A stretch of 64,000 nucleotides of DNA, taken from the NCBI RefSeq assembly GCF_037892605.1, contig NZ_JBBKTU010000001.1, forward strand, positions 2,232,001 to 2,296,000, written 5' to 3'. The DNA comes from Lacibacter sp. H407 (GTDB lineage Bacteria; Bacteroidota; Bacteroidia; Chitinophagales; Chitinophagaceae). The notes below the pieces were generated by a model. The model had not been told where the DNA came from, did no database searches, and was given only the letters and a program-made list of their open reading frames with translations. Positions 6,423 through 39,293 of the stretch are shown piece after piece (position 1 is the first letter of the stretch; each line of letters opens with the position of its first letter). Both the position numbers and the translations under genes were made by a program.

Positions 6423-6502
6423 GCCAGGTATGAAGTACGATGTTTGATGTGCGAGGCACGATGTGTTCCTGTTCATCTCTCTACTATAAAATTTACAGTT
6501 TG

Positions 6503-6531
6503 AAAAGTTGATGGGTATCCTGTCAACTTTT
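6503..6531 (+). terminator. Possible weak terminator after fabI
   Basis: Nine-base arms AAAAGTTGA (6503-6511) and TCAACTTTT (6523-6531) separated by 11 bases. The stem is A/T-rich and the T tail is short, so termination would be leaky; it could also be a leader structure in front of the SemiSWEET gene. Confidence 0.4.
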
Positions 6532-6551
6532 TAATGTTTAAACCAAATTTC

Positions 6552-6821
6552 ATGACACCATTTTGGGTAGAGGTTGTTGGTCTTTTTGGATCGTTTCTAA
6601 GCAGTATTACGTTTGTGCCGCAAGTGTACAAAGCATGGCGAAGCAAAAGTGTAGGCGACCTCAGTATTTACACCATTCTGATTGTTTCGAGCAGTACATT
6701 GGTTTGGTTGGTCTACGGTTTTTTCAATGAACCATTGCTGCTGCCTGTAGTATTGTGCAATGGGTTCATCTTTTTATTATCACTTGTACTTTTATATTTT
6801 AAGATCTCGTTTAAAAAGTAA
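6552..6821 (+). CDS. SemiSWEET-type small sugar transporter (PQ-loop)
   Basis: An 89-residue membrane protein with three hydrophobic helices and the PQ motif in the first helix (FVPQVYKAW, residues 21-29), the layout of bacterial SemiSWEETs, which dimerise to form a sugar channel-like facilitator. The second helix begins SIYTILIVSSSTLVW and the third PVVLCNGFIFLL. ATG 6552 gives the usual SemiSWEET N terminus; an in-frame ATG at 6534 lies just behind a hairpin and is less likely. The VOC gene begins two bases after this stop, so the two are probably co-transcribed. The transported sugar cannot be inferred. Confidence 0.85.
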   Translation: MTPFWVEVVGLFGSFLSSITFVPQVYKAWRSKSVGDLSIYTILIVSSSTLVWLVYGFFNEPLLLPVVLCNGFIFLLSLVLLYFKISFKK

Positions 6822-6823
6822 AT

Positions 6824-7213
6824 ATGCACATTGAGCACATTGCAATTTGGGTGAAAGATATCGAAGCAATGAAAGCATTCTTTTGCAAGTACTTTCATGC
6901 AACTGCAAATGATCAATACCTCAACAACACAAAACAATTTCGATCGTATTTTCTTTCGTTCGATGGTGGTCCACGATTGGAGTTGATGCAGATGCCTTCT
7001 GTTCCTGATTCGAAAGATGATGTGTATGATCAGTTTACCGGGTTGATTCATTTTGCTATATCGCTGGGGAGCAAAGAAAAAGTAGACGAGATGACAGCAC
7101 AATTTCGAAACGATGGATTTGAAGTGTTGGATGGCCCGAGAACTACGGGCGATGGATATTACGAAAGTGTAATTCTTGATCCGGAGAAAAACAGGATTGA
7201 ATTGACGGTTTGA
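6824..7213 (+). CDS. VOC-family (glyoxalase/bleomycin-resistance fold) protein
   Basis: A 129-residue single vicinal-oxygen-chelate module pair: the N-terminal strand MHIEHIAIWVKDIEAM with a metal-type His, a central PRLELMQMP segment giving a Glu, a second module starting IHFAISLGS and a last strand ending DPEKNRIELTV with a second Glu. This H-E-H-E pattern suggests a metal site like glyoxalase I or a related lyase, but the substrate cannot be read. It starts two bases after the SemiSWEET stop and is the last gene of that pair. Confidence 0.82.
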   Translation: MHIEHIAIWVKDIEAMKAFFCKYFHATANDQYLNNTKQFRSYFLSFDGGPRLELMQMPSVPDSKDDVYDQFTGLIHFAISLGSKEKVDEMTAQFRNDGFEVLDGPRTTGDGYYESVILDPEKNRIELTV

Positions 7214-7227
7214 GAAACGGGTTTCAA

Positions 7228-7320
7228 CATACGTACCTCGACTGCGCTCGATTCGAATGAAACTCCTTCGACTTCGCTCAGGGTTAAAAACAAACCCCGC
7301 CGTTGAAGGCAGGGTTCAAT
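7228..7320. repeat. Extragenic repeat-like segment with imperfect palindromes
   Basis: The gap after the VOC gene holds CTCGACTGCGCTCGA and TTCGACTTCGCTCAGG, two versions of the same self-complementary unit, then an imperfect hairpin AACCCCGCC/GGCAGGGTT (7293-7301 and 7308-7316, one mismatch). Part of the unit recurs reversed at 59634-59643 (CCTGAGCGAA). The layout is that of a repetitive extragenic palindrome; the last hairpin may also end the VOC transcript weakly. Confidence 0.5.
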
Positions 7321-14210: not shown

Positions 14211-14879
14211 TTAGATAATTATTCTTTTCAATGCTTCCCTTTCACTTAACGGTGAAAGGGAATGTTTTTTTACAAATGCCTGTACCCATGTTGCAGCGGT
14301 TTTGGAATATTCACGTAATGCCCAACCAATGGCCTTCTGAATAAAAAACTCCTTTGATTTTTTTAGCTGAAGAATGTGTTTTGAAAGTAGGGCTGTATCA
14401 GTTTGTTCTTTATACGCTTTCTGAAACATAATACTGCTGCGTTGTAACCAGATATTCTTACTCTTGTTCCACTTGGTTGTGATCTTTACTTGTTGCTCCG
14501 GAAATTTTTGAAAATAAGGTCCGGTTAAAGAACTGGCTGCGTGATCAACTGTTTCCCACCAGCTTTTGTGTGTAAGGATGTATTCGATCATATCAATCGT
14601 TTCTTTCTTCCATTCTTTTTGATAGCAGGCCAGTAATTCTATTGCAACATATTGCATCTCCCGTTTGGGATGTTGCCAACAGTCTTTAATGATTGCTTGA
14701 AGTCTTTCAAACGCTGGTAACGACTGTTTAAAATATTCTTTGCTGAGTTTTCGCCAAACAGGAGCTTTTAAACCATAAAAGTCAAATTGGTTTAGCATAT
14801 ATGCTTTCATACCCTGCGCATGAACAGGATTTGCTTCCTGTTCAAACTGTTTTATCAAAGGAATAAGATATGCGTGCAT
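14211..14879 (-). CDS. AlkD-like DNA alkylation repair protein
   Basis: A 222-residue all-helical HEAT-like repeat protein of the DNA alkylation repair (AlkC/AlkD) family, DNA glycosylases that excise N3- and N7-alkylated purines without base flipping. Family features are MKAYMLNQFDFYGLKAPVWR near the N terminus, HPKREMQYVAIELL, the THKSWWETVDHAA segment with the conserved Trp and Asp, LQRSSIMFQK, and KEFFIQKAIGWALREYSK near the C terminus. It begins nine bases after the gamma-glutamyltransferase-like gene and is probably in its transcript. Its last 50 coding bases contain the terminator of the opposing gene. Confidence 0.9.
   Translation of the reverse strand: MHAYLIPLIKQFEQEANPVHAQGMKAYMLNQFDFYGLKAPVWRKLSKEYFKQSLPAFERLQAIIKDCWQHPKREMQYVAIELLACYQKEWKKETIDMIEYILTHKSWWETVDHAASSLTGPYFQKFPEQQVKITTKWNKSKNIWLQRSSIMFQKAYKEQTDTALLSKHILQLKKSKEFFIQKAIGWALREYSKTAATWVQAFVKKHSLSPLSEREALKRIII
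14235..14271 (+). terminator. Terminator of the type IX cargo gene, inside the AlkD coding end
   Basis: Stem TTCCCTTTCAC/GTGAAAGGGAA (14235-14245 and 14252-14262) with a six-base loop, followed on the plus strand by TGTTTTTTT. It lies 27 bases after the cargo gene stop but within the last 20 codons of the convergent AlkD-like gene. Confidence 0.75.
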
Positions 14880-14888
14880 TTGTTTTAT

Positions 14889-16784
14889 TTACCAACCAAT
14901 GCCATAGTCTTCTCCATGATTACTGCTGCCACCCCAAAAACTTTTGTGTTTCCAATCAAACCAAATCGCATTGATTGGGCCACTTGTTCTGTCCTCAAAA
15001 AAGAGTGTATAACCCATTTTTCGTAGTTCTTTTCTCACCCATTCGGAAGTATTGGTATGTAATAACAAATGTCCGGGTTTCGGTTTTCGGTCTTCTGTTT
15101 TACTTCCACCTAGTGATAACCAAAGTTGGTTGCTGTTAATGTTTGCTGCTTCACATGCTTCCTGCACGTTCATGCCAAATTCAACGATGTTTAAAAAGAA
15201 CTGCAATAAATTTTGATCCTGCGTATCGCCTCCCTGTACAGCAAATGATAAATACGGCTTTCCATCTTTCAATGCCATGGTTGGAGTTAATGTTACTCTG
15301 GGGCGTTTGCCTGGTTCAATTACATTGAATGGATTGAGTGCAGGATCAAGTACAAAACTTTGTCCACGCTGACTCATACCTACACCTGTATTACCAGCAA
15401 TGGTTGCCGGCAACCATCCACCCGACGGCGTAATGGAAACAACCCAGCCTTCTGCATCGGCTGCTTCAACTGTAGTTGTTCCTCTCCATAAACGGTCCAT
15501 GTATTCAGCATCGGCAGCGGCCACAGCTTCATTTCGGACATCATGTGCAGGGGCAAAATTTCGTGTTTGTATTGATGTTGTATCCATATTGAATCCACGT
15601 TTCTTCAACACATCCATAAATGGATTTGTTTTTCCTTCAAACGGATATGGATCGCCCGGACCAATGTTTGGCATATTCCGTTCCATTGAAATTTGCTTTG
15701 CTCTGTATTTTGCATATTCTTTACTTAACAAACCTTGCATTGGCTCAGCAGGAGGAAAGGCAGGGTCGCCATAATAAAAATCACGGTCGGCAAATGTCAT
15801 ATTCATGGTTTGGTAAACAGTATGAATATATTTTGCACTGTTATAACCCATGCTCTTCAAATCAAAATTCTCAAGGATGTTTAAACTCTGTAATAACATC
15901 GGTCCTTGCGTCCATTGCTGCAGTTTATAAACTTCAATGCCTTTGTAATTAACGTGCATGGGTTCTTCTTCAAGCGGCTTCCAGTTGGCCAGATCATTCA
16001 TTGTAATTAAACCGCCTTGTTCCTGGCAACCACGCACAAATTCTTTGGCAATATCACCTTTGTAAAACCGATCATACGCCGCCATTATCGCTTCTTTTCT
16101 GCTCTTGCCTTTTTTTAATGCGTCTTGCTCCGCCTGTACCATTTTGGTAAGCGTTTCCAACAGATCTTTTTGAACAAAAATTTCACCCGCTTCAGGTGCT
16201 TCCCGTTTTTCACCAAGATGTGGAAGAAAAACTTTTTTACTGTACGGCCATTGTTTGATGCGTTCTTTTCCACGCTCCATGCTGTTGGCAGTTTGCGCTT
16301 CAATGGGATAACCTGCCGCTAACTCCATTGCAGGCGCCAACACTTCTTTCAAACTCATGGTACCGTAATTCGCCAACATATGACAGATGCCACCTGGTGT
16401 GCCTGGCGTAACCGCTGCTAACGGCCCATACTCCGGCGGGAAATTATAACCTTTGCTTTTATAAAATTCTGCAGTAGCGCCCGTTGGTGCAACACCCAAT
16501 GCATTGATGCCAATTACTTTTCCGGTTTTTGGATTGTAAATAAGTGCCTGCGTTTCGCCTCCCCAACTCAGCACATCCCACATGGTACATGTGGCCGCCA
16601 ACATAGCGCATGCAGCATCAACTGCATTGCCACCTTTCTGAAACACCATACTGCCGGCAGTTGCAGCTAACGGTTTACCTGTAATAGCCATCCAGTTTTT
16701 GCCGTGTAGAACCGGCTTTTGTGTTTGCTGTGCAAAGCTGCATTGTGCCGAAACGGCAACTGCTAAAAGAAGAAGGAGTCTCAT
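14889..16784 (-). CDS. Exported gamma-glutamyltransferase-family protein
   Basis: A 631-residue member of the gamma-glutamyltransferase superfamily of self-cleaving Ntn hydrolases, with a signal peptide (first 19 residues). Large-subunit features include QKGGNAVDAACAML and PGTPGGICHML. The nucleophile region reads TTTVEAADAEG, where T436 aligns with the autoprocessing Thr of typical enzymes (TTH). However the His after the two Thr is Thr, and the Ser-Ser of the oxyanion/substrate motif (RPLSSMSPT) is V-T (RPRVTLTPT, 494-502). I therefore infer a divergent subfamily with another acyl substrate, not a standard glutathione hydrolase. AlkD follows nine bases downstream. Confidence 0.85.
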   Translation of the reverse strand: MRLLLLLAVAVSAQCSFAQQTQKPVLHGKNWMAITGKPLAATAGSMVFQKGGNAVDAACAMLAATCTMWDVLSWGGETQALIYNPKTGKVIGINALGVAPTGATAEFYKSKGYNFPPEYGPLAAVTPGTPGGICHMLANYGTMSLKEVLAPAMELAAGYPIEAQTANSMERGKERIKQWPYSKKVFLPHLGEKREAPEAGEIFVQKDLLETLTKMVQAEQDALKKGKSRKEAIMAAYDRFYKGDIAKEFVRGCQEQGGLITMNDLANWKPLEEEPMHVNYKGIEVYKLQQWTQGPMLLQSLNILENFDLKSMGYNSAKYIHTVYQTMNMTFADRDFYYGDPAFPPAEPMQGLLSKEYAKYRAKQISMERNMPNIGPGDPYPFEGKTNPFMDVLKKRGFNMDTTSIQTRNFAPAHDVRNEAVAAADAEYMDRLWRGTTTVEAADAEGWVVSITPSGGWLPATIAGNTGVGMSQRGQSFVLDPALNPFNVIEPGKRPRVTLTPTMALKDGKPYLSFAVQGGDTQDQNLLQFFLNIVEFGMNVQEACEAANINSNQLWLSLGGSKTEDRKPKPGHLLLHTNTSEWVRKELRKMGYTLFFEDRTSGPINAIWFDWKHKSFWGGSSNHGEDYGIGW

Positions 16785-28983: not shown

Positions 28984-29021
28984 TCCTGAGTGATAGTCGA
29001 AATTCCGATCATTTGAAATAG

Positions 29022-29053
29022 AAATCCCTCAGCATTTGCTGAGGGATTTTTTT
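29022..29053 (+). terminator. Terminator of icd
   Basis: Twelve-base arms AAATCCCTCAGC/GCTGAGGGATTT (29022-29033 and 29038-29049) with an ATTT loop and a T run. Confidence 0.85.
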
Positions 29054-29103
29054 ATTACAATCTGGACGGTTTCGCCGGCCTGAACGATTGGAACGGATAG
29101 ATG

Positions 29104-29130
29104 GTTCAGGTCGCTTTTAGCGCCCCGACC
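29104..29130. repeat. Extragenic palindromic unit, copy 2
   Basis: Begins GTTCAGGTCGCTTTTAGCGC and ends CCCGACC; 24 of 27 bases match copy 1 at 18321. It can fold by GGTCG/CGACC. It lies next to the stop of the leftward DUF1905 gene, beyond the icd terminator. A related inverted piece GCCTGAAC is at 29074-29081. Confidence 0.55.
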
Positions 29131-29133
29131 CTA

Positions 29134-29616
29134 TCAAAGCGACTCCCTGCCAACAAAACTTCCGTTGCCACTCAAAAAGTTGATGGCTCTTGTAATATTT
29201 CGTTCAACACTTGCTGCTGTTTTTAAATTGGAAATATAACGGATGATCTCCTGTTGACGGGATGCAGGTAGCTGTTTGAAATTTTTGTTTGCCGTTTTAT
29301 TCTTTGCCAATGCTTTCTCAAGTCCTTCGTGCATATTTAATTTCCTGTCGGCGGGATCAAATGCAATACTGATGGATACGGTTTCACCAATTCGTTTCGG
29401 TGAATCTTTTAACATGATGGTGTTGATGTATAAGCGCCAATGCCCGGCATACTTTACCAATGTTTGTCGGTAAGGGGTTTTATTGATCACACCTTTTATT
29501 GGGATGGGTCCTTTTTCTTTGCCTGCTTCCTGCAAAACAGCAGCAAGTATTTTTTCAGGAACAAATACAAATGGGTTGATCCCGATCAGTTCAATGGTTG
29601 CTTTGAATTTCTGCAT
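29134..29616 (-). CDS. DUF1905 plus YdeI-like protein
   Basis: A 160-residue protein: the N-terminal DUF1905 part (residues 1-90, with FVFVPEKI and VINKTPYRQTLVKYAGHWRL) and a C-terminal YdeI/OmpD-associated helical part with PASRQQEIIRYISNLKTAAS, RNITRAINFL. Proteins with this architecture are common in Bacteroidota and have no proven biochemical role. It stands alone between the palindromic unit and the phosphoesterase on the same strand, which starts about 30 bases upstream of its own end; weak co-transcription is possible. Confidence 0.82.
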   Translation of the reverse strand: MQKFKATIELIGINPFVFVPEKILAAVLQEAGKEKGPIPIKGVINKTPYRQTLVKYAGHWRLYINTIMLKDSPKRIGETVSISIAFDPADRKLNMHEGLEKALAKNKTANKNFKQLPASRQQEIIRYISNLKTAASVERNITRAINFLSGNGSFVGRESL

Positions 29617-29647
29617 GCTTACTGGAAATGATCAACTGATTTTTTAG

Positions 29648-30571
29648 TTACGAAAGCTTCATCATTTTTCTGGCGAACGTTCCGTCATCATAAAAATCAA
29701 ACACTGCATAGGCAGGTTCAAATTCCTGGAACGCACCTTTCCACCAATTGCCTGAAACGGCTCCGTTGCAAAAATATTTCACACCGAGATAATCCACCTC
29801 ATCCTGTAAGTGAATATGACCGCTTAAGCAGACTTTAATATTGGGATTTCCCAGGAATAGTTTCTTCAACGCAAAAAAATCGGTGTGCATCAGGTTGCGT
29901 TGGATCTTCAGGTCGCCATTGGCTTCTGTTTTATTAAAGAATAAACCTGCACAAATTGATAAAATGGGGATGTGCGAAACAATACAGATGAATTTATCTT
30001 TTGCATTGTTCAGTTCCTGTTGCAGCCAATCCAGTTGCGCAGGATCAACATAAGCAATATAGCCGCCCGCAGGATTTAGTTGTGTACTGTCAAGTATAAT
30101 AAACTGCCATTTGTTTTTTGTAAAGCTATAATAGCGTTTTGGCAACGCCAATGTTTCAACCACCCATTGTTTGCCATACAGCTTATCTGCTTCGGGCCGG
30201 TCGTTTTTAATGAACCAGCCCCACACATCGTGGTTGCCGATACAATGATAAACCGGCAGACTGTTTTCTTTCTTCAGGATCGAGTGAAACAGATCCCATT
30301 GTGTTTTTGTTTTTTGTTTATCTGCATCCAGTGAATCCATAATGGAGTCACCGCCATTGATAATAAAATCAACTTTTTCTTTTAATGATTGCACATGTTG
30401 AAACGCTTTTGCCATACCTGCTTCAGCAACAGCATCAGGTTTTACATGAATATCGGTGACATAGGCAAAGCGTATCTTACCTGTTTTACTGTTTTCTGCT
30501 GAGCTGTGAAAAGGCAGGAGACTGCTGCCAACAAGTGCAGCGGATGTTTGTAAAAAATCACTTCGTTTCAT
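29648..30571 (-). CDS. Exported calcineurin-type metallophosphoesterase
   Basis: A 307-residue protein with the five metal-site motifs of the family: YVTDIH, GGDSIMD, GNHD, SHIP and SGHIH. The N terminus MKRSDFLQTSAALVGSSLL resembles a Tat signal with Lys-Arg in place of Arg-Arg, so export with bound metals is plausible. Substrate unknown; relatives act on phosphodiesters, cyclic nucleotides or phospho-glycans. The DUF1905 gene follows 31 bases downstream on the same strand. Confidence 0.87.
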   Translation of the reverse strand: MKRSDFLQTSAALVGSSLLPFHSSAENSKTGKIRFAYVTDIHVKPDAVAEAGMAKAFQHVQSLKEKVDFIINGGDSIMDSLDADKQKTKTQWDLFHSILKKENSLPVYHCIGNHDVWGWFIKNDRPEADKLYGKQWVVETLALPKRYYSFTKNKWQFIILDSTQLNPAGGYIAYVDPAQLDWLQQELNNAKDKFICIVSHIPILSICAGLFFNKTEANGDLKIQRNLMHTDFFALKKLFLGNPNIKVCLSGHIHLQDEVDYLGVKYFCNGAVSGNWWKGAFQEFEPAYAVFDFYDDGTFARKMMKLS

Positions 30572-30669
30572 GAGCGGTTTTCTTTGCTAAAAAGTACAAA
30601 AAAGATTTGAGGGATGTACGGATAAATTTATAAAGCTTCTTCTGCCGAATTTTTCGTTGCATCGCATTT

Positions 30670-30984
30670 TCAACCCGGCACAGCAGGTGTTTCAATGATC
30701 AAATTGCCGGTGCTTTTGGTAAATGTAATATTCAAATAAACGGTTCGTTCTTTTTTTGAAGAGGAGTGCAGGTATTCAAATTTATCCATGCTGATCGTAG
30801 CTGCCAATTCGTTGTACAGTTGGTCTATGTTGATTTCGCCCACTTCAATCGTCATTGTTAACGAAATATCAGAAAAGAGTTTGAAATCGACGATGTCACC
30901 ATGCGTTGCTACCACCGTTTTTATTGTGTTGATGGATGCATGTCGTTCTTCGTTGGTGTAGCCTGTCCAAAAAATATTTCCCAT
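30670..30984 (-). CDS. Conserved hypothetical protein
   Basis: A 104-residue protein with a predicted alpha-beta fold: MGNIFWTGYTNEERHASINT, an acidic second strand DIVDFKLFSDISLTMTIEV and a C-terminal strand ERTVYLNITFTK. It carries no motif I can name and no signal peptide. It is the gene that follows repeat copy A when read leftward. Confidence 0.5.
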   Translation of the reverse strand: MGNIFWTGYTNEERHASINTIKTVVATHGDIVDFKLFSDISLTMTIEVGEINIDQLYNELAATISMDKFEYLHSSSKKERTVYLNITFTKSTGNLIIETPAVPG

Positions 30985-31013
30985 TAGTTGTAACCTGGTA
31001 GTTGATGAATATT

Positions 31014-31225
31014 CTCAGCAATGTTTCTGCCCGCAAAGCATAAGTTATTTGTAAAGAAAATGTCGCAGGACTTTGCGTGCTACAATTTAGCTTTTTTATT
31101 TTTCAGTGATGAGTGGGAATGATGTGTTTAATTCTTACTAAGCACCGCCCCATTTTGCTTTGGTACAGGCACTTATCTTTATCTATTGGGATACAGTGCT
31201 GCAAAGGAAGTTTATTCCGTCAGCC
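31014..31225 (-). repeat. Cassette-like repeat, copy A
   Basis: About 210 bases that align over their whole length with 31804-32030 in the same orientation. Best-conserved blocks are the TACAATTTAGCTTTTTTATT segment, the GCACCGCCCCATTTTGCTTT segment, GGATACAGTGCTG and the terminal CCGTCAG. Identity by eye is about 70 percent overall and 80-90 percent in the blocks. Read leftward, it begins four bases after the stop of the 168-residue membrane gene. Confidence 0.7.
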
Positions 31226-31228
31226 ATG

Positions 31229-31735
31229 CTATTGCAGATGCACTTGTTGTGTGTTGTGCTTTTGTCCCTTTCGTTTTATCTGTCTACCGAACCAAATGCC
31301 AACTAATAAAGCTGGAATAATTCCAAAGAGTGTCACCCAATAAAGTGGCTTGAAAATGTAGTCTTCAAAAGGATTGTCATTTGTGCCAATATTGTCAATG
31401 CCTTCTTGAAAAAAGCCTGTCCAGCTCGAAGCAAAAGCGGTTGTAAATAAAACAGTCATACCGCATAAGAACCCAACTAAAATGGGATTTCTTTTTTTGA
31501 TCAAAATAGCTTTGCCTGCAAGTTGTCCGTAGAAGTGCCCACAAAGAAGTAAGATAATGACGCCAATAAACAGGTTCAGTTTGTAGTTTACTCTTGTAAA
31601 CCAAAAGAATGCTTTAAAAAGATTTTGGTCAGATGAAATCATCGTTGTCATAGTTAGCTGGGCTATAAATAAGCCAAGTCCAGCGCAAACCAGCCCTTGC
31701 CGACTACCAATTTTTTTAGCTTCTGTTTCTGTCAT
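31229..31735 (-). CDS. Unrecognised four-helix membrane protein
   Basis: A 168-residue protein with about four hydrophobic helices: VCAGLGLFIAQLTMTTM, LNLFIGVIILLLCGHF, PILVGFLCGMTVLFTTAFA and PLYWVTLFGIIPALLVGIWF, and a basic tail (RQIKRKGQK). No family recognised. It lies between the two copies of the cassette-like repeat: the repeat B copy precedes it by 69 bases and repeat A begins four bases after its stop. Both location and lack of known family suggest an accessory gene. Confidence 0.6.
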   Translation of the reverse strand: MTETEAKKIGSRQGLVCAGLGLFIAQLTMTTMISSDQNLFKAFFWFTRVNYKLNLFIGVIILLLCGHFYGQLAGKAILIKKRNPILVGFLCGMTVLFTTAFASSWTGFFQEGIDNIGTNDNPFEDYIFKPLYWVTLFGIIPALLVGIWFGRQIKRKGQKHNTQQVHLQ

Positions 31736-31803
31736 GGTTACAATTCGATCACTAATAGCACTTTAAAATTGGGACATGTAAAACGCATAGTACATCTCCT
31801 TTT

Positions 31804-32030
31804 CTGAGCAACGTCTCTGCTTGCACCTGGAAAATTACTTGTACAAAAGCCAAGGCAGGACGTTGCATGGTACAATTTAACTTTTTTTATTTTTCGGGTG
31901 CCAATGTAAATGTGGTATTGAATCCTTACTACGCACCGTCCCCATTATGCTTTGGTAAAGGTTCTCATCTTGTCAATTCGGATACAGTGCTGGGAAAGAA
32001 GAGTTGGCGTAGCGGTTTTTTCCCGTCAGT
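31804..32030 (-). repeat. Cassette-like repeat, copy B
   Basis: Second copy of the unit at 31014-31225, about 227 bases. Its blocks are TACAATTTAACTTTTTTTAT, the GCACCGTCCCCATTATGCTT segment, GGATACAGTGCTG and CCCGTCAGT. Read leftward, its first bases contain the stop codon of the lipoprotein gene (TGA in ACTGACGGG). Confidence 0.7.
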
Positions 32031-32808
32031 AATAAGAATATTGAAACTGCTGAGCTTTCTTTAAATAAAAATTATTGTCAATTAATTTGTCCAAAGTTGC
32101 AACATGCTTTAAAAGTTCATTTTCTCTTTCTTTCTTATTGATTCTTTGAGGAATTTCATTGTCCGCTTCTATTTCTCTGTGAATTATTTCTTTCAAAGAG
32201 TTTAAGTAATTTTTTTTCAGTTTTCTAATATCAACCAGCTTATTATCGATGTCCGAAAACGACTTGTATTCGTAAACTCCATACTCGGCATAGCCATTTA
32301 TTCGGTTGAATTGATGTACAAAGAAAGTTCCACCATATTGTAAGTAGCCAAAAATGTCATTTATTGTTTGGTAAATGGTTATCAGATTTTCCCTGACTGT
32401 ATCCAAACTTTTCTCATTTTGCTTTTGCCTCAAAAAGTACGAGTATAAAATGTAGTAAGTATCTTGCCCTTGTTCACTTCCAAATGTTAAATGCTTTTTT
32501 CTGCCGTTATCTTCAACAATATCTTTGAAGTAGCCACTTTGTGCATAGGAAATGTCAGGGTTTACGGGAATTGAAGAATATAATGACGGGAAATTGTCAA
32601 CTATTTGATTAAAATGCTCTTTTGAATATTTGATTGTGTCAAAGTGTTTTGATGATATAATTACACTGTCTCCTTTTGCATATATTTGAGATTTGTCGAT
32701 TGATGCTTGGTTCTTAACAACGATTGTATCAAACTGTTTTGAAGGATTATTTGTTTGACTATTGCAGCCAAAAAAAGGTAATGACAATATGAAAGTTATG
32801 ATCTTCAT
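32026..32808 (-). CDS. Predicted lipoprotein, unknown function
   Basis: A 260-residue protein with a lipoprotein signal (MKIITFILSLPFFGC, Cys15 as lipobox Cys). The mature part is Asn, Lys and Tyr rich, mostly helical after residue 100, and has no recognised domain (GYFKDIVEDNGRKKHLTFGS and YLQYGGTFFVHQFNRING). ATG 32808 opens the lipoprotein signal; the start at 32895 adds an unlikely 29 residues. The gene is AT-rich compared with its neighbours and its stop lies in repeat copy B, which suggests acquisition as a gene-plus-repeat module. Confidence 0.65.
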   Translation of the reverse strand: MKIITFILSLPFFGCNSQTNNPSKQFDTIVVKNQASIDKSQIYAKGDSVIISSKHFDTIKYSKEHFNQIVDNFPSLYSSIPVNPDISYAQSGYFKDIVEDNGRKKHLTFGSEQGQDTYYILYSYFLRQKQNEKSLDTVRENLITIYQTINDIFGYLQYGGTFFVHQFNRINGYAEYGVYEYKSFSDIDNKLVDIRKLKKNYLNSLKEIIHREIEADNEIPQRINKKERENELLKHVATLDKLIDNNFYLKKAQQFQYSYY

Positions 32809-32936
32809 AAAGTTGCAAGCAACAAAAATATACCTTATATAAGATGTTATTTCTTGAAAAATACTATAATTGAAAATCCATCGTATAGTATTCAATTTTT
32901 TAGATTGTCGTTAGTACACTCAAGTCCGCAAACAAT

Positions 32937-33209
32937 TCATCTCACCACCTCAAACCCTACAAATGCCTTCAACTCTCTCTCATCAACTGTAACAGAAGTA
33001 ACCTTGCTCTTGGGCGAGCCCATCCAGCACCATTCAATAAAATCGGCTAATTGATCTTCGGTGCCGGTGGCAACAACCGCCACATCGCCATCATCCGTGT
33101 TGCGCACGGTGCCGGTAAGTTGTAATTGTTGCGCTTTCTCAAGTGTATACCGGCGAAACCAAACGCCCTGCACCTTTCCTCTAACGGTTATGGCTACTGT
33201 TTTTTGCAT
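32937..33209 (-). CDS. acyP: Acylphosphatase
   Basis: Hydrolyses carboxyl-phosphate bonds. The 90-residue alpha/beta sandwich shows the two signatures RGKVQGVWFRRYT (phosphate-binding Arg) and GTVRNTDDGDVAVVATG (catalytic Asn). The start is ATG 33209, whose A is also the last base of the Rrf2 stop (TAATG), so translation is probably coupled with the Rrf2 gene. The 28 residues of the longer frame are not part of the fold. Confidence 0.92.
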   Translation of the reverse strand: MQKTVAITVRGKVQGVWFRRYTLEKAQQLQLTGTVRNTDDGDVAVVATGTEDQLADFIEWCWMGSPKSKVTSVTVDERELKAFVGFEVVR

Positions 33210-33613: not shown

Positions 33614-33697
33614 CGTATTGTATTCGTTTAAAACTAAGTGGAAGCGGGTATTTTGTCTGTTGGCAAAGTTGCTATTTTTATTTTTAAAATTCACTAT

Positions 33698-34204
33698 ATG
33701 CCAAAATCCACATTTTTACTGGCCCTGATATTCGTGGCCGCCTCGTTTCAAACTGCAAGAGCGCAAAAAACAAATCTCTTTCTGGGTGGCAACCTCATTG
33801 TTGGTTTTCCCAGTGGTGATTTTAAAAATGGCTACAAACGTGCCACCGGTATTGAAGGCTCCATGGGCCTCGGCAGTTCCAAATTCATTGTACTGGGAAC
33901 ATTGGGCTACATGTCGTACAAAGAAAAAGAGGGTAACCAGTTTGGAAAAATTACAGTGATCCCGTTGAAAGCAGGTATCCGTGTTTACCCCACTAATATG
34001 TTATTCCTGACCGGTAATGCCGGTGTTGGTTTTTTGAAAGATGAGACCATGAATTCCCGTGAAACAAGATTTGTGTATGATGCGGGTGTTGGTCTGCATA
34101 TTATTCTTGGACAGATCAGCGTACACTACGATGCCTGGAAACGACAAAATACAAACGGTTATACTGGCTCGGTATTACTCAAACTTGGGTTGGCCTTAAA
34201 ATAA
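33698..34204 (+). CDS. Small outer-membrane beta-barrel protein, first of a tandem pair
   Basis: A 168-residue porin-like protein with a signal peptide (MPKSTFLLALIFVAASFQTARAQ is the region, cut after ARA). Strands include LFLGGNLIVGFPSGDF, KITVIPLKAGIRVYPTN, LFLTGNAGVGFLKDE and a C-terminal SVLLKLGLAL. No Trp-rich OmpW motif is seen. It is about half identical to the next gene. The start at 33698 opens the signal peptide. The 85-base gap to the divergent Rrf2 gene holds both promoters. Confidence 0.75.
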   Translation: MPKSTFLLALIFVAASFQTARAQKTNLFLGGNLIVGFPSGDFKNGYKRATGIEGSMGLGSSKFIVLGTLGYMSYKEKEGNQFGKITVIPLKAGIRVYPTNMLFLTGNAGVGFLKDETMNSRETRFVYDAGVGLHIILGQISVHYDAWKRQNTNGYTGSVLLKLGLALK

Positions 34205-34222
34205 TTGCTGCCGGTTATTTCC

Positions 34223-34270
34223 AAAAGCTGCAAGGTCTTGTTAAAGAAATTACAAGCCTTGCAGCTTTTT
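34223..34270 (+). terminator. Terminator between the tandem barrel genes
   Basis: Arms AAAAGCTGCAAGG (34223-34235) and CCTTGCAGCTTTT (34257-34269), plus an inner stem CTTGT/ACAAG, then T residues. The two barrel genes therefore probably have separate transcripts. Confidence 0.75.
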
Positions 34271-34314
34271 GTGTTTGGTACAATATTGGCAAAACAGCTT
34301 TCTAAAATCACGTT

Positions 34315-34824
34315 ATGAAACAAAAAATGTTGTTTTCCCTTCTTGCAGCCTTTCTTGGTTTGATGCCCATAACATTTGCACAAAAAGGCAATACCATCTT
34401 TGGTGGTAATGTAATTGTTGGTGCACCACTCGGCGATCTGCGAAACGATTACAGAAGTGTATTTGGTATCGAAGGATTGGCCGGATTTGGTGTGGCTGAG
34501 AGTGTGTACATTACCGGTACCATTGGGTTTCAATCGTACGCACCGGAAACCTATAACCCGTATGGTAAAATAACAATGGTGCCGTTGAAAGCGGGTGTGC
34601 GTTTTTATCCAATCAAAAATTTATTTCTTACTGGTAATGCCGGTGTTGGATTGATAAAAGATGAAACCATTGATGCACGGGAAAGCCGCTTTGCGTATGA
34701 TGTGGGTGCGGGGTTGAGCTTTTCTATTTTTAATGCAAGTGTACACTACGATGGATGGCAGAAGAAAAATACCAATGGCGGATCAAATTCGGTATTACTG
34801 AAGCTGGGTATTGCCATTCGCTAA
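34315..34824 (+). CDS. Small outer-membrane beta-barrel protein, second of a tandem pair
   Basis: A 169-residue paralogue of the preceding gene, with signal peptide MKQKMLFSLLAAFLGLMPITFA and the shared strands IFGGNVIVGAPLGDL, KITMVPLKAGVRFYP, NLFLTGNAGVGLIKDE and ASVHYDGWQKKNTNGG; the C terminus is SVLLKLGIAIR. Its stop overlaps the stop of the convergent response regulator by three to four bases. A terminator separates it from the first copy, suggesting independent regulation after duplication. Confidence 0.75.
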   Translation: MKQKMLFSLLAAFLGLMPITFAQKGNTIFGGNVIVGAPLGDLRNDYRSVFGIEGLAGFGVAESVYITGTIGFQSYAPETYNPYGKITMVPLKAGVRFYPIKNLFLTGNAGVGLIKDETIDARESRFAYDVGAGLSFSIFNASVHYDGWQKKNTNGGSNSVLLKLGIAIR

Positions 34825-35494: not shown

Positions 35495-37450
35495 TTACTG
35501 TTCAACTGTTTTGTTCTTACCTGCAGGTAAATGAATGGCTACTAACGTTCCTTTGCCTGGCGCCGTATCAAAATCGATACTGCCATGCAAATAGTCAATT
35601 CGTGCTTTCATGTTTTTAAGTCCCATGCCTGCTTCTTCGGGTAATTGATCTTTATCGAATCCTTTTCCATTGTCTTCGATTGTTACACTTACACCATCTT
35701 TATCTTTAATGAGCGAAATATCCAGTTCTGTTGCAGCCGAATGTTTGATCACGTTGTTCACACATTCCTGCATTACACGGTATAATACAATTTCACTGTT
35801 TTCTTCGATCCGCTCATTTAATCCTTCTGTGTAGAGATTTACTTTGATGATGCGTTGATCGATCTTATCAAGAAATTCAGCTACTGCTTTTGCAAGACCC
35901 GATTTCAGTAACATGTTCGGCATCATCTGGTGTGATACGGTGCGTACCTCCTTTACACTTTCATCAACAAGGCTGATGATGCGTTCAAACGAAAGCTTAT
36001 GCTCAGGGTTTTGAAACTGCATGTCTTGTTCAAATGCAGATAAATTCATTTTAGCAGCACTCATCATTTGGCCCACACCATCGTGCAGATCTTTAGCAAT
36101 GCGTTGCCGTTCTTTTTCTTCAGCTTCCATTACAGCCGCTGCCGCTAATTGCTGCTGTTCAAAAACGGCTTTTTGCATCTTTGCTTCCTGTTGAATTTTT
36201 TTACGGCGGTAATAGGAGAAGATCAACAAGGCAAGAAGAATGCCGACAACCAAAATGCCGGATATCCAATAATTTTTTACAGCGATCACATGCTGTTGCC
36301 GTTCGATCTCTTTTTCTTTTTCGAGTGTTTGATATTTTGTTTCAAGTTCAGCAAATTTATCGCCGAGGTTGTCGGTAAACAGCGAATCTTTTGTACTGGC
36401 GTACGATTTATACATTAACAGTGCTTCATCATCTCTATTCAATGCTTCATACGATCTGGAAAGGGCGAGATAGGTTTGATTGATCTCCGGCAAACAGTTG
36501 TCGGCCGGTTTCCCGATCGTTAATGCTGCATTTAAAACGGCTAATGAAGAATCGAATAATCGTTGTTCCTGTAAAAGAAGGCCGAGGTTATTCATGCAGC
36601 TAACCTGTCCTTTTGTATCGTTGAGATCTTTACGTAATTGAAGCGATTCATTAATGGCCTCAAGTGCTTCCTTGTACAATTGCCGGTTAATGTAAAGCGA
36701 TCCGATATTGTTTAAACCATTGGCCAGGTATTCTTTATCGCCCAGTTCACGACTAATGGTAATGGCTTTCTTATAAAACTCAATTGCTTTTGCATCGTTG
36801 CCTTTGATCTTGTAAATGTTGGCGATGTTTACAAACGAACCGGCAAGACCGTAATTGTCCTTTAATTTTTCTTTGATCTCAATTGACTGTAACTGGTATT
36901 TAATGGCTTCATCGTACCGGCCAAGATTTTGATTGAGGATACCGATATTATTTAATGAATAGGAAACACCGATATCGTTTTTGTATTGTGAAAAAAGTGC
37001 GAGGGCTTGCAATTGATTCTCCAACGCTTTATCAAACGCACCCTTTTTCTGATACACGATACCGATCTTGTTATACAATTTTGCAATGCCGAGTCCATCG
37101 TTTAACTGTTTTCTGATCTTATTTGATTCCTGGTAAAAGACAATGGCGCTGTCGTACTTCTCCTGATCGTATAATAAAATACCGAGATCATTATACGCTT
37201 GTGCGATCCCTGATGGGTAGTTTGATTTTTTTGCCTGTGCAATAGCTTTGTACCCATAGTTCATGGCTTTGTCACGATCTACAAGCCGATACTCCCAGGT
37301 AAGATCATTGTAAATTTTTACAAGTTGACTGTCTTTGGTTACAGCTACCATTTTTTCGAGACTATCGATCACAGATTTATTTTTCTGCGCATGCAATAAG
37401 GTTGAGCAAATCAGCAGAACAGGAATGATCAGGAAATGTTTTAAAAGCAT
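35495..37450 (-). CDS. TPR-containing sensor histidine kinase (HisKA_3 type), copy 1
   Basis: A 651-residue kinase: signal peptide, six to seven tetratricopeptide repeats in the periplasm (about 80-350, each with an NxxG turn such as LNNIGILNQNLGRYDEAI), a coiled coil, one membrane helix (about 394-414), then the NarX/DesK-type dimerisation domain with His456 in IAKDLHDGVGQ and an ATPase domain with VMQECVNNVIKH and DNGKGFD. It is about 70 percent identical to copy 2 in the kinase part by eye. It sits 19 bases after copy 2 and 32 before the response regulator. Confidence 0.92.
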   Translation of the reverse strand: MLLKHFLIIPVLLICSTLLHAQKNKSVIDSLEKMVAVTKDSQLVKIYNDLTWEYRLVDRDKAMNYGYKAIAQAKKSNYPSGIAQAYNDLGILLYDQEKYDSAIVFYQESNKIRKQLNDGLGIAKLYNKIGIVYQKKGAFDKALENQLQALALFSQYKNDIGVSYSLNNIGILNQNLGRYDEAIKYQLQSIEIKEKLKDNYGLAGSFVNIANIYKIKGNDAKAIEFYKKAITISRELGDKEYLANGLNNIGSLYINRQLYKEALEAINESLQLRKDLNDTKGQVSCMNNLGLLLQEQRLFDSSLAVLNAALTIGKPADNCLPEINQTYLALSRSYEALNRDDEALLMYKSYASTKDSLFTDNLGDKFAELETKYQTLEKEKEIERQQHVIAVKNYWISGILVVGILLALLIFSYYRRKKIQQEAKMQKAVFEQQQLAAAAVMEAEEKERQRIAKDLHDGVGQMMSAAKMNLSAFEQDMQFQNPEHKLSFERIISLVDESVKEVRTVSHQMMPNMLLKSGLAKAVAEFLDKIDQRIIKVNLYTEGLNERIEENSEIVLYRVMQECVNNVIKHSAATELDISLIKDKDGVSVTIEDNGKGFDKDQLPEEAGMGLKNMKARIDYLHGSIDFDTAPGKGTLVAIHLPAGKNKTVEQ

Positions 37451-37469
37451 ATGGTTTCAGTAGTTGAAA

Positions 37470-39293
37470 TTATACGTTTACTTGATGCGGTACATGAATG
37501 GCAACCAATGTTCCTTTTCCGGGTGCTGAATCGAAATCAACAGTACCTTTTAAGAACTGGATACGGCTTCGGATATTGCTCAACCCAATGCCTTCATTCT
37601 CCTGCTGCGGATCGTACGCAAATCCTTTCCCATTGTCTTCAATGGTAACACTAATGCCATCTTCATCATTGATGAGTGAAATATCCAGATCTGTTGCTTC
37701 AGCATGTTTGATGGTATTGTTCACACATTCCTGAATAATGCGGTAGAGAATGGTTTCGGTGTTAGAGTTAAAGCGTTCAGTAAATCCTTCGCTGTAAAAA
37801 TTCAGTTTCAACGCATCGCTGCTCACTTTTGAAGTTAGCTCAGCTACTGCATCGGGCAAGCCTTTGCTTAATAAAGCGGCCGGCATCATACTATGCGATA
37901 CGGCTCTTACTTCTTTACAACTATCATCTACCAGTTGAATAATATTCTGCAGTGATTGGTTTTGTTCCTGGTCCGGAATGTTTGCCGTGTTGTAATACGA
38001 TGAGAGATTCATACGTGCGGCACTCATCATTTGTCCTACACCATCGTGCAGGTCTTTGGCAATCCGGCTTCGTTCTTTTTCTTCTGCTTCCAATACTGAT
38101 CTGGCAGCCAACTCCTGTTGCAGCATGATCTCATTTTGCAGTTTTACCTGTTGTTTCCAACGGTAACGGTTGTAAAAAAGATAAGCAATAACAGCAGCGA
38201 GCAGTACAATGCCAAGTATGAGGAAGATGAGGTTATTTCTTTTTTTTATGGTGAGTTGCTGTACCTGTATCTGCTGTTCTTTTTTATTGGTTTCATACAA
38301 AGTACTCAGCTCTTCAATTTGTCTTGTTTTTTGCGCATTGAACAACGAATCTTTCAATTGTGTATGCCAGGTGTAATAATCAAGTGCCCGTTTGTAATCG
38401 CCGGTAACATTGGCAATGCGGCTTAGCTCTGCATAATTGTTCGACATTAATTCTTTGTATTGCATTTTTTCAGCCAGCTTACTGCTTTCTTCGAGATAAT
38501 ACACAGCCCGTTCATATTTGCCCCAGGCGCTGTACATCACACCAAGATCAGCATAGCTGACTGTAATGGCAAACGTGTCTTTTAATTTTTGGCGGATGCC
38601 TAAGGTTTGAAGATTGTAATCTTCAGCAAGTAAAAATTTACTTTGCAATGTATAAATACCGGCAAGAAATGAAAGCGACCAACCTTTGCCAGCCTCATCT
38701 TTTAAATTCTCTGCAATTTGTAACGATGCTTTGTAACGACGGATCGCTTCTTCAAGATTTCCCTGGTATTCGTACACTACACCACTTTCGTTCATCACCA
38801 TCTGTATACCACTTGAATCGTTCATAGCTCTGAACACTGCTAATGCTTTTTCATAGTTTTCAGCAGCCCGTTTCAGATCTCTTGTTTTACGGTAGAGTTT
38901 GGCAATATCGTTATACACATATCCTACTGCTTTTTGATCGCCGCTGCGTTCGTAAACTCCTGCTGCTACATAATAACTGGCAGCTGCTTTTTCATAATCG
39001 CCTTTAAAGTAATTGGCCATACCGATATAACGGTTCAACTCGGCATACGCCAATGAATCGTTGAGTTTGGCAGCCAGTTGTAAACCTTCATCACCAATGC
39101 GGATGGTTTCGTTAAAACTGATGAGACTTAGTTTGCCGGTGAGCAACACATACGCTTTCAGCTTAGTTTCATCTTTAGCAGATGATTGCACAGTTGCACG
39201 TAAGCTATCGATCGTTGTATCCTGCGAAAAAGCGAACAGGGTACAACAGAAGAGCAGTAGGGTAAGTAAAGCAGATCTTGGGTTCAGCCACAT
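37470..39293 (-). CDS. TPR-containing sensor histidine kinase (HisKA_3 type), copy 2
   Basis: A 607-residue paralogue of the preceding kinase: signal peptide, five to six tetratricopeptide repeats (about 85-320), a membrane helix (about 354-374), His416 in IAKDLHDGVGQ and the ATPase motifs IIQECVNNTIKH and DNGKGFA, GIGLSNIRSRI. It starts five bases after dapB, so it appears to share the parB-DUF5683-dapB transcript. Tandem duplication of the kinase with a single regulator downstream suggests two inputs to one output. Confidence 0.92.
   Translation of the reverse strand: MWLNPRSALLTLLLFCCTLFAFSQDTTIDSLRATVQSSAKDETKLKAYVLLTGKLSLISFNETIRIGDEGLQLAAKLNDSLAYAELNRYIGMANYFKGDYEKAAASYYVAAGVYERSGDQKAVGYVYNDIAKLYRKTRDLKRAAENYEKALAVFRAMNDSSGIQMVMNESGVVYEYQGNLEEAIRRYKASLQIAENLKDEAGKGWSLSFLAGIYTLQSKFLLAEDYNLQTLGIRQKLKDTFAITVSYADLGVMYSAWGKYERAVYYLEESSKLAEKMQYKELMSNNYAELSRIANVTGDYKRALDYYTWHTQLKDSLFNAQKTRQIEELSTLYETNKKEQQIQVQQLTIKKRNNLIFLILGIVLLAAVIAYLFYNRYRWKQQVKLQNEIMLQQELAARSVLEAEEKERSRIAKDLHDGVGQMMSAARMNLSSYYNTANIPDQEQNQSLQNIIQLVDDSCKEVRAVSHSMMPAALLSKGLPDAVAELTSKVSSDALKLNFYSEGFTERFNSNTETILYRIIQECVNNTIKHAEATDLDISLINDEDGISVTIEDNGKGFAYDPQQENEGIGLSNIRSRIQFLKGTVDFDSAPGKGTLVAIHVPHQVNV

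Follow-up and report, generated by a model that had tools for sequence, protein, structure and literature searches.

The two repeats that stand behind unrelated genes in this stretch of DNA are very probably inverted pairs of ∼80-base hairpin units, which together represent a BIME/REP-like, non-autonomous mobile repeat of the genus. Decayed elements of this type are the most likely identity of both copies, and the repeat family most likely belongs to a kind of element that is already known. One of the two genes, gene B, appears to have a separate history; we think it likely that this gene is the remnant of a cassette from an integron class that is widespread in Chitinophagaceae and apparently undescribed. 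The class would be characterised by a XerA-like recombinase that lacks the IntI insertion, an attI of conserved sequence (about GCGTATATTTAwGwGTT), long attC-like hairpins, cassette-specific boxes of ∼13 nt and arrays of unrelated genes. Throughout, the window is the whole 64,000-nt stretch that was analysed, and coordinates without a locus label are positions in it. G numbers denote genomes, G000 being the window's own genome, and L numbers denote fetched loci; the genus in all counts is that of the window, from which 13 other genomes were covered.

The repeats in the window and in related genomes

The features of the region are as follows.

30670–30984, minus strand: 104-residue ORF past copy A, no Pfam family over the cut-off
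31011–31210, minus strand: copy A, a decayed REP/BIME-like element made of two units as an inverted pair, from BLASTN, alignment and the unit model
31011–31094, plus strand: unit A2, inverted; other-genome model E=0.003, fold no better than shuffles
31124–31210, minus strand: unit A1, a ∼80-base hairpin unit; other-genome model E=2.3e-7, fold no better than shuffles
31229–31735, minus strand: gene A, a 168-residue membrane protein, no Pfam family over the cut-off
31799–32001, minus strand: copy B, a two-unit (inverted pair) REP/BIME-like element, from BLASTN, alignment and the unit model
31799–31885, plus strand: unit B2; other-genome model E=2e-7, fold z −2.5
31917–32001, minus strand: unit B1; other-genome model E=8.8e-5, fold no better than shuffles
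32003–32015, minus strand: CCGCTACGCCAAC, an R''-like box common to the G058 cassette, where it reads CTGCTACCAAC
32026–32808, minus strand: gene B, a 260-residue lipoprotein-like protein, its start taken at ATG (a TTG start is listed at 32895)
32812–32823, minus strand: GTTGCTTGCAAC, a putative core box on the 5' side of the gene B cassette, at the position of the G058 cassette border

As an earlier, sequence-only reading of the window had described, copies A and B are homologous and share both their orientation and the order of their blocks, with 73–74% identity over ∼200 positions (E = 1.9e-24 in a BLASTN search of G000 with copy B). The same search identifies a third, half-length copy, copy C, which corresponds to one unit (C1:187936-188020, 76%, E = 6e-10) and begins ∼58 bp past the stop codon of a 126-residue gene; these are the only three repeat places known in G000. 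Identities of 74% between A and B, 77% between A and the copy in G396, and 73% between B and that same copy suggest that A and B do not look like recent duplicates of each other.

Each repeat does lie shortly 3' of the stop codon of a minus-strand gene. Copy A ends at 31210, ∼19 bases before the gene A stop at 31229, and in copy B the units supported by relatives end at 32001, ∼25 bases from the stop at 32026, and the presence of this stop codon within repeat B, which had been supposed, is not confirmed. Genes A and B are indeed unrelated, with no common Pfam family over the cut-off and no mutual blastp match at E ≤ 1. Their description as AT-rich holds for gene B (GC 0.31 against 0.41 for the window) and only slightly for gene A (0.38).

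Further copies, for which a search had been proposed, are found not only as copy C but also in the genus at large. A covariance model built from A, B and C, which is sequence-only and far more sensitive than plain BLASTN, detects copies at E ≤ 1e-4 in seven of the 13 other genus genomes (G396, G258, G083, G160, G395, G394 and G213; best E = 2e-34) among 186 relatives searched. The best match outside the genus in these 186 genomes, at E 3.8e-4, is treated as chance. Plain BLASTN of copy B against 394 family genomes gives nothing convincing beyond G000: six genomes match, the own genome counted, and the matches in L020, L022 and L023 were rejected as repeat copies because they fall within ORFs. 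That in L021 was also rejected, its sequence being almost that of L022, and that in L019 comprises 32 bases adjoining a stop codon. The exact core pattern of A, B and C has no match in the GTDB 220 genomes or IMG/VR, from which records of the own genome are possibly absent. With one mismatch allowed, it matches once outside G000 in the 394 family genomes (G086), compared with two matches for the reversed control pattern, and the G086 match is therefore attributed to chance. The plasmids searched give no match.

The hairpin unit, its placement and its probable mobility

An iterated profile on the genus loci gives 48 hits, on both strands at the same places, which merge to 23 places in the searched genus loci, the window and L018. 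Alignment of 37 half units reveals one unit of ∼80 bases that occurs in either orientation and comprises an outer arm, TTCYCAGCAACGTCTCYC, a loop of ∼35 nt and an inner arm, GGGGACGTTGCGTRC. Two such units arranged tail to tail make up the full element. Single and tandem units are seen too (L218, L220, L222 and L224), as are mosaics. There is no GTAG or CGTC tag at the foot of the stem, where the inner flank varies (GTAC, GTGC, GTGT, GTAT and others). The inverted symmetry of the elements is visible in the profiles, but not in simple alignment, by which whole-element self-complementarity (48–59%) is hardly above that of shuffles (mean 50, maximum 57).

A model trained solely on nine units from genomes other than G000 recovers all four units of A and B with the E values listed above, and copy C at E 9e-5. 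The nine training units are single, tandem or mosaic and had first been identified by a profile that itself started from A, B and C, and the test is thus not wholly independent. When folded, the relatives' units that were tested are all better than shuffles (5/5, z −2.3 to −5.6), whereas only one of five G000 units is so; B2 alone among the four window units keeps such a hairpin, and A1, A2, B1 and C are no better than shuffles. The conserved structure for which a check had been proposed is thus seen in the tested units of relatives and, in G000, in B2 alone, so that the copies there look decayed. An alternative offered by the sequence-only reading, that of a decayed repeat family, proves to be the right one, with units in relatives and worn copies in G000.

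All 23 elements are extragenic, lying in gaps between main ORFs by a count from which any ORF sharing more than 40 bases with an element was excluded; a mechanical listing places 8/23 in ORFs, of which seven are of 73–91 residues and one is the early start of the RAYT-like ORF described below. Fifteen elements lie between tandem, seven between convergent and one between divergent genes, the corresponding numbers for 139 other gaps being 96, 20 and 23. The preference for gene 3' ends that had been expected is not significant in this count (divergent 1/23 against 23/139, Fisher p=0.20; convergent p=0.07), and relatives have copies that follow other genes or lie between convergent ones, singly or in tandem. 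Since an extragenic place is usual for REPs, the gene-then-repeat order in the window would be compatible with ordinary placement of this sort, with no need for a cassette rule.

Regulatory RNA or terminator structures, shared at 3' ends and held under selection, might likewise account for hairpins that follow genes in the intervals between main ORFs. We give this explanation almost no credence, given that Rfam has no family for the repeats at E ≤ 1, that the A1, A2, B1 and C hairpins do not exceed their shuffles, and that the patchy presence of the units and their link with a RAYT-like gene speak for mobility.

That gene is seen in a sister species (G083, locus L215), in which a RAYT-like ORF is located between two inverted units, at 6488-6569 on the plus strand and 7173-7257 on the minus strand, that touch its ends. 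The encoded protein matches NF047646, the REP-associated tyrosine transposase, with E=2.6e-16 (59.8 bits; curated cut-off 80) and PF01797 weakly (17.6 bits; Pfam cut-off 23), and has NHMH and Y.H.NP motifs. A protein 95% identical to it in G395 (L220) has one unit, at the 3' side only. The gene was found by reading between units and not by the Pfam Y1 search, which gives 49 matches in the genus, in 12 of the 13 genomes; in 30 loci examined from these 49 matches, no unit lies within 1.5 kb of other Y1 genes. No RAYT of the L215 subfamily is among the fetched G000 loci. G083 also contains a second RAYT-like sequence (L216:11053-11430), 35% identical to that of L215 and ∼1.1 kb from an Rrf2 gene in the same locus; the GTTGGTC-type palindromes around it perhaps represent another REP type.

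The size of the full elements (∼160–200 bp) and their inverted ends (TTCYCAG.../...CTGRGAA) would fit MITE-like elements that carry terminal inverted repeats and depend on some DNA transposase. Against this reading, single half units and tandem and mosaic arrangements exist; no target duplication is seen by eye in 11 flank pairs, and the transposase that does lie between units is RAYT-like. This origin is accordingly improbable. From the arrangement in the sister species we infer instead that a RAYT (HUH/Y1) transposase was the mover of these units and most likely spread them as single-stranded DNA; by their appearance, the G000 copies would be fossils of that activity.

Gene content between the isocitrate dehydrogenase and acylphosphatase genes (28987-32951) is highly variable across the genus. 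G000, G396, G258 and G292 differ in their genes there, three of the four hold the repeat, and G258 has a cytosine-methylase-like gene with a partner. Elsewhere in the window, two adjacent outer-membrane-like proteins (33638-34824) are similar by eye, as are two sensor kinases (35495-39293); each pair is perhaps a tandem duplication.

Gene B and an integron-like array system

The closest relative found for gene B, in 195 genomes searched, is 85% identical in amino acid sequence and belongs to another genus (G058). There, in L057, it is one of four cassettes, the genes of which have no mutual blastp match. Three repeats of ∼200 bp, 87–91% identical, are located behind three of the genes, and a diverged fourth behind the remaining one. 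The similarity between G000 and G058 starts a few bases after GTTGCTTGCAAC, which is also a few bases before the gene B start codon, and ends at CCGCTACGCCAAC, with element B starting within a few bases. From the homologue in an array and the cassette-like borders kept in G000, we infer that gene B in G000 is a cassette that lost its attC, with a REP-like element now in place. Of the attC-like site only the first box would remain, at the point where element B starts. Element B appears to have taken the place of the attC. The proposal of a movable gene-plus-repeat module stands in part: the repeats do not define one, but the suspicion of a cassette was right for gene B, by way of its G058 homologue. 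In G058 itself (L057:5875-6082), the core box before the homologue is degenerate (AAC followed by ATAAGTACTAA) and the ATG that serves as start in G000 is altered, and this cassette may therefore be inactive.

Could A and B themselves be the attC-like sites of two gene cassettes, with gene and repeat moving together? The gene–repeat order and the shared orientation would follow, the lengths of A and B (196 and 193) compare with an attC-like mean of 190, and gene B is a cassette elsewhere, in G058. The inner hairpin of B pairs above chance (p=0.005), and an inner box of B fits the gene B 5' box at 6/9 positions, a match to which we give little weight because several boxes were tried. The outer arms, however, pair at chance level against a window null (A p 0.60, B p 0.24), as do the inner hairpins of A (p 0.43) and C (p 0.45), and the outer boxes match at 1/9 for gene A and for gene B alike. 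Five rounds of profile search reveal no homology to the attC-like family, and iterated profiles, arm pairing and inner hairpins have all failed to place A and B in it. The conserved part in A, B and C extends beyond GTT, and the units also occur in solitary form and beside the RAYT-like gene.

The loci of the gene homologues are likewise without units, none being found at E ≤ 1e-3 at those of gene A (G160), gene B (G058) and the gene preceding copy C (G160). The gene A homologue, 75% identical, is located elsewhere in G160; it and the homologue of the gene preceding copy C are conserved as genes alone, with unlike sequence on either side and no repeat. Because these homologues are placed elsewhere, they provide no clean empty site for A or C. 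We regard it as very unlikely that A and B are cassette sites, and retain their identification as REP-like elements, with gene B alone as a putative cassette of the family's integron-like system of XerA-like recombinase, attI and attC-like sites.

In the arrays of this system the genes are unrelated, and every one has its own, different site of ∼190 bases behind it. The G058 site type is found at E ≤ 1e-5 in 134/384 family genomes and 53/101 genera, in a search that scored at most two candidates per genome. Its core occurs in 48 stretches of GTDB 220, mostly from Chitinophagaceae, plus Runella, Siphonobacter and Flectobacillus. The G058-type repeat starts with AAC and ends with GTT. Across 56 neighbouring pairs, the bases that follow GTT agree at 6.55/9 positions with the reverse-complemented sequence preceding the next AAC, compared with 3.70/9 for mismatched pairs, and none of 10,000 permutations reaches 6.55. 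A box-only search with 131 5' boxes finds the partner at a known repeat in 36 cases, elsewhere in 35 and not at all in 60; the 35 partners elsewhere, some of which look like chance, show further site types. In the R family the arms pair at -17.8 kcal/mol (null -6.5 kcal/mol). For the other site types, 25 of the 35 have a CGTT end at a set distance, and cognate arms pair at -17.8 vs -10.0 kcal/mol (0/10,000 permutations). One array contains an identical 264-base stretch twice (L168:12420-12683 and 14731-14994), as if a cassette had been duplicated.

XerA/XerC-like proteins of ∼370–400 residues are located upstream of the arrays. At nine loci (L168-L176), five of which were chosen for repeats already known in their vicinity, there are 57 sites downstream of the recombinase on its own strand and none upstream on that strand. 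Loci fetched without such knowledge have downstream sites in 4/11 cases, several others having little room. Against this pattern, L182, with 9.8 kb of room, has no downstream site and three on the opposite strand, and L180 has one site, on the opposite strand. Also counting against it, no same-strand site is found at 19 further recombinase loci in the ≤1.5 kb downstream of each. The first sites in the nine loci start 734 to 1497 bases from the recombinase. In L175 the recombinase is split between frames, and on C2 of G000 (L176) it is truncated (113 residues), accompanied by a candidate attI and one site; apart from this locus, G000 has an array with four sites on C1 (L144).

By the logic of the boxes, a candidate attI is seen ∼100–280 bases behind the recombinase in eight of the nine array loci. 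Shuffled spacers give a candidate in 117/900 cases, and any single attI may therefore be chance, but eight of nine hardly so. The first attC-like site in each of these eight loci has the partner box at its start, and a GCGTATATTTA-like sequence, which was not part of the search criterion, is common to most of them. The box match, the arm pairing and the candidate attI suggest that the attC-like sites behave like integron attC sites, and it is probably the XerA-like protein that recombines the cassettes.

The TIGR02249 cut-off is passed in 0/147 genomes and in none of 14 control genomes either, and is thus not validated here. Typical TIGR02249 hits align to 1-180 and 240-315 of the model, the two parts being joined by a short stretch, and the predicted recombinase would lack the IntI insertion. 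It scores best with the NF040815 family (207 and 219 bits, slightly below the cut-off of 220) and, for solved structures, with PDB 4a8e and 5hxy, IntI4 (2a3v) being third. It has ∼85–110 extra residues at its N-terminus.

Comparison with known systems

The REPs of E. coli are extragenic palindromic units that occur singly or as inverted dimers. The present repeats share these properties with the REP/BIME elements of PMC3733652, as far as its account of GTAG- and CGTC-tagged repeats extends, but differ in their longer unit and loop, in having no GTAG/CGTC tag and in their few copies in G000. The arrangement in L215 looks like that of RAYT subclass 2.6, which, in the portion of PMC6006769 cited here, is a Bacteroidetes subclass with atypical secondary structures on its flanks, copies of which occur at other genomic places. 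In both, a transposase gene of Bacteroidota lies between hairpin units that have distant copies, and NH.H, Y.H.NP and SS motifs are readable in the L215 protein. The W motif, by contrast, is by our reading WE and not WQ, and the units here are of ∼80 bases with ∼35-nt loops. A RAYT-type repeat family thus explains a tempting gene-then-repeat layout, which is a caution for cassette hunting.

No paper joining integron, attC and Chitinophagaceae was found in the open-licence literature that was searched, and a prior description elsewhere is possible. Bacteroidota are included among integron-bearing phyla in the relevant passages of PMC8618304 and PMC9668308, and those of PMC9024848 name one complete integron in Bacteroidetes proper, that of Salinibacter ruber. 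The IntI insertion is called essential or necessary for integron recombination in the passages concerned of PMC8138268 and PMC9668308. Should the array system prove to be a functional integron, this insertion would be dispensable in some cases, and environmental Bacteroidota, in a large group, would possess a gene-capture platform that is missed by searches relying on an IntI cut-off.

Compared with the integron attC cassettes and CALINs of PMC9024848 and PMC9668308, as represented in the parts of those papers used here, the array system shows the same combination of attI, attC-like hairpins, gene cassettes and a core GTT, whereas neither copy A nor copy B qualifies as an attC site. It differs in that its recombinase is XerA/XerC-like and apparently without the IntI insertion, its boxes are of ∼13 nt and most of its sites of ∼190 bases, and its array is located downstream of the recombinase and co-oriented with it. 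Unlike the XerA/XerC-like recombinases of NF040815, the array recombinase adjoins a candidate attI and a cassette array.
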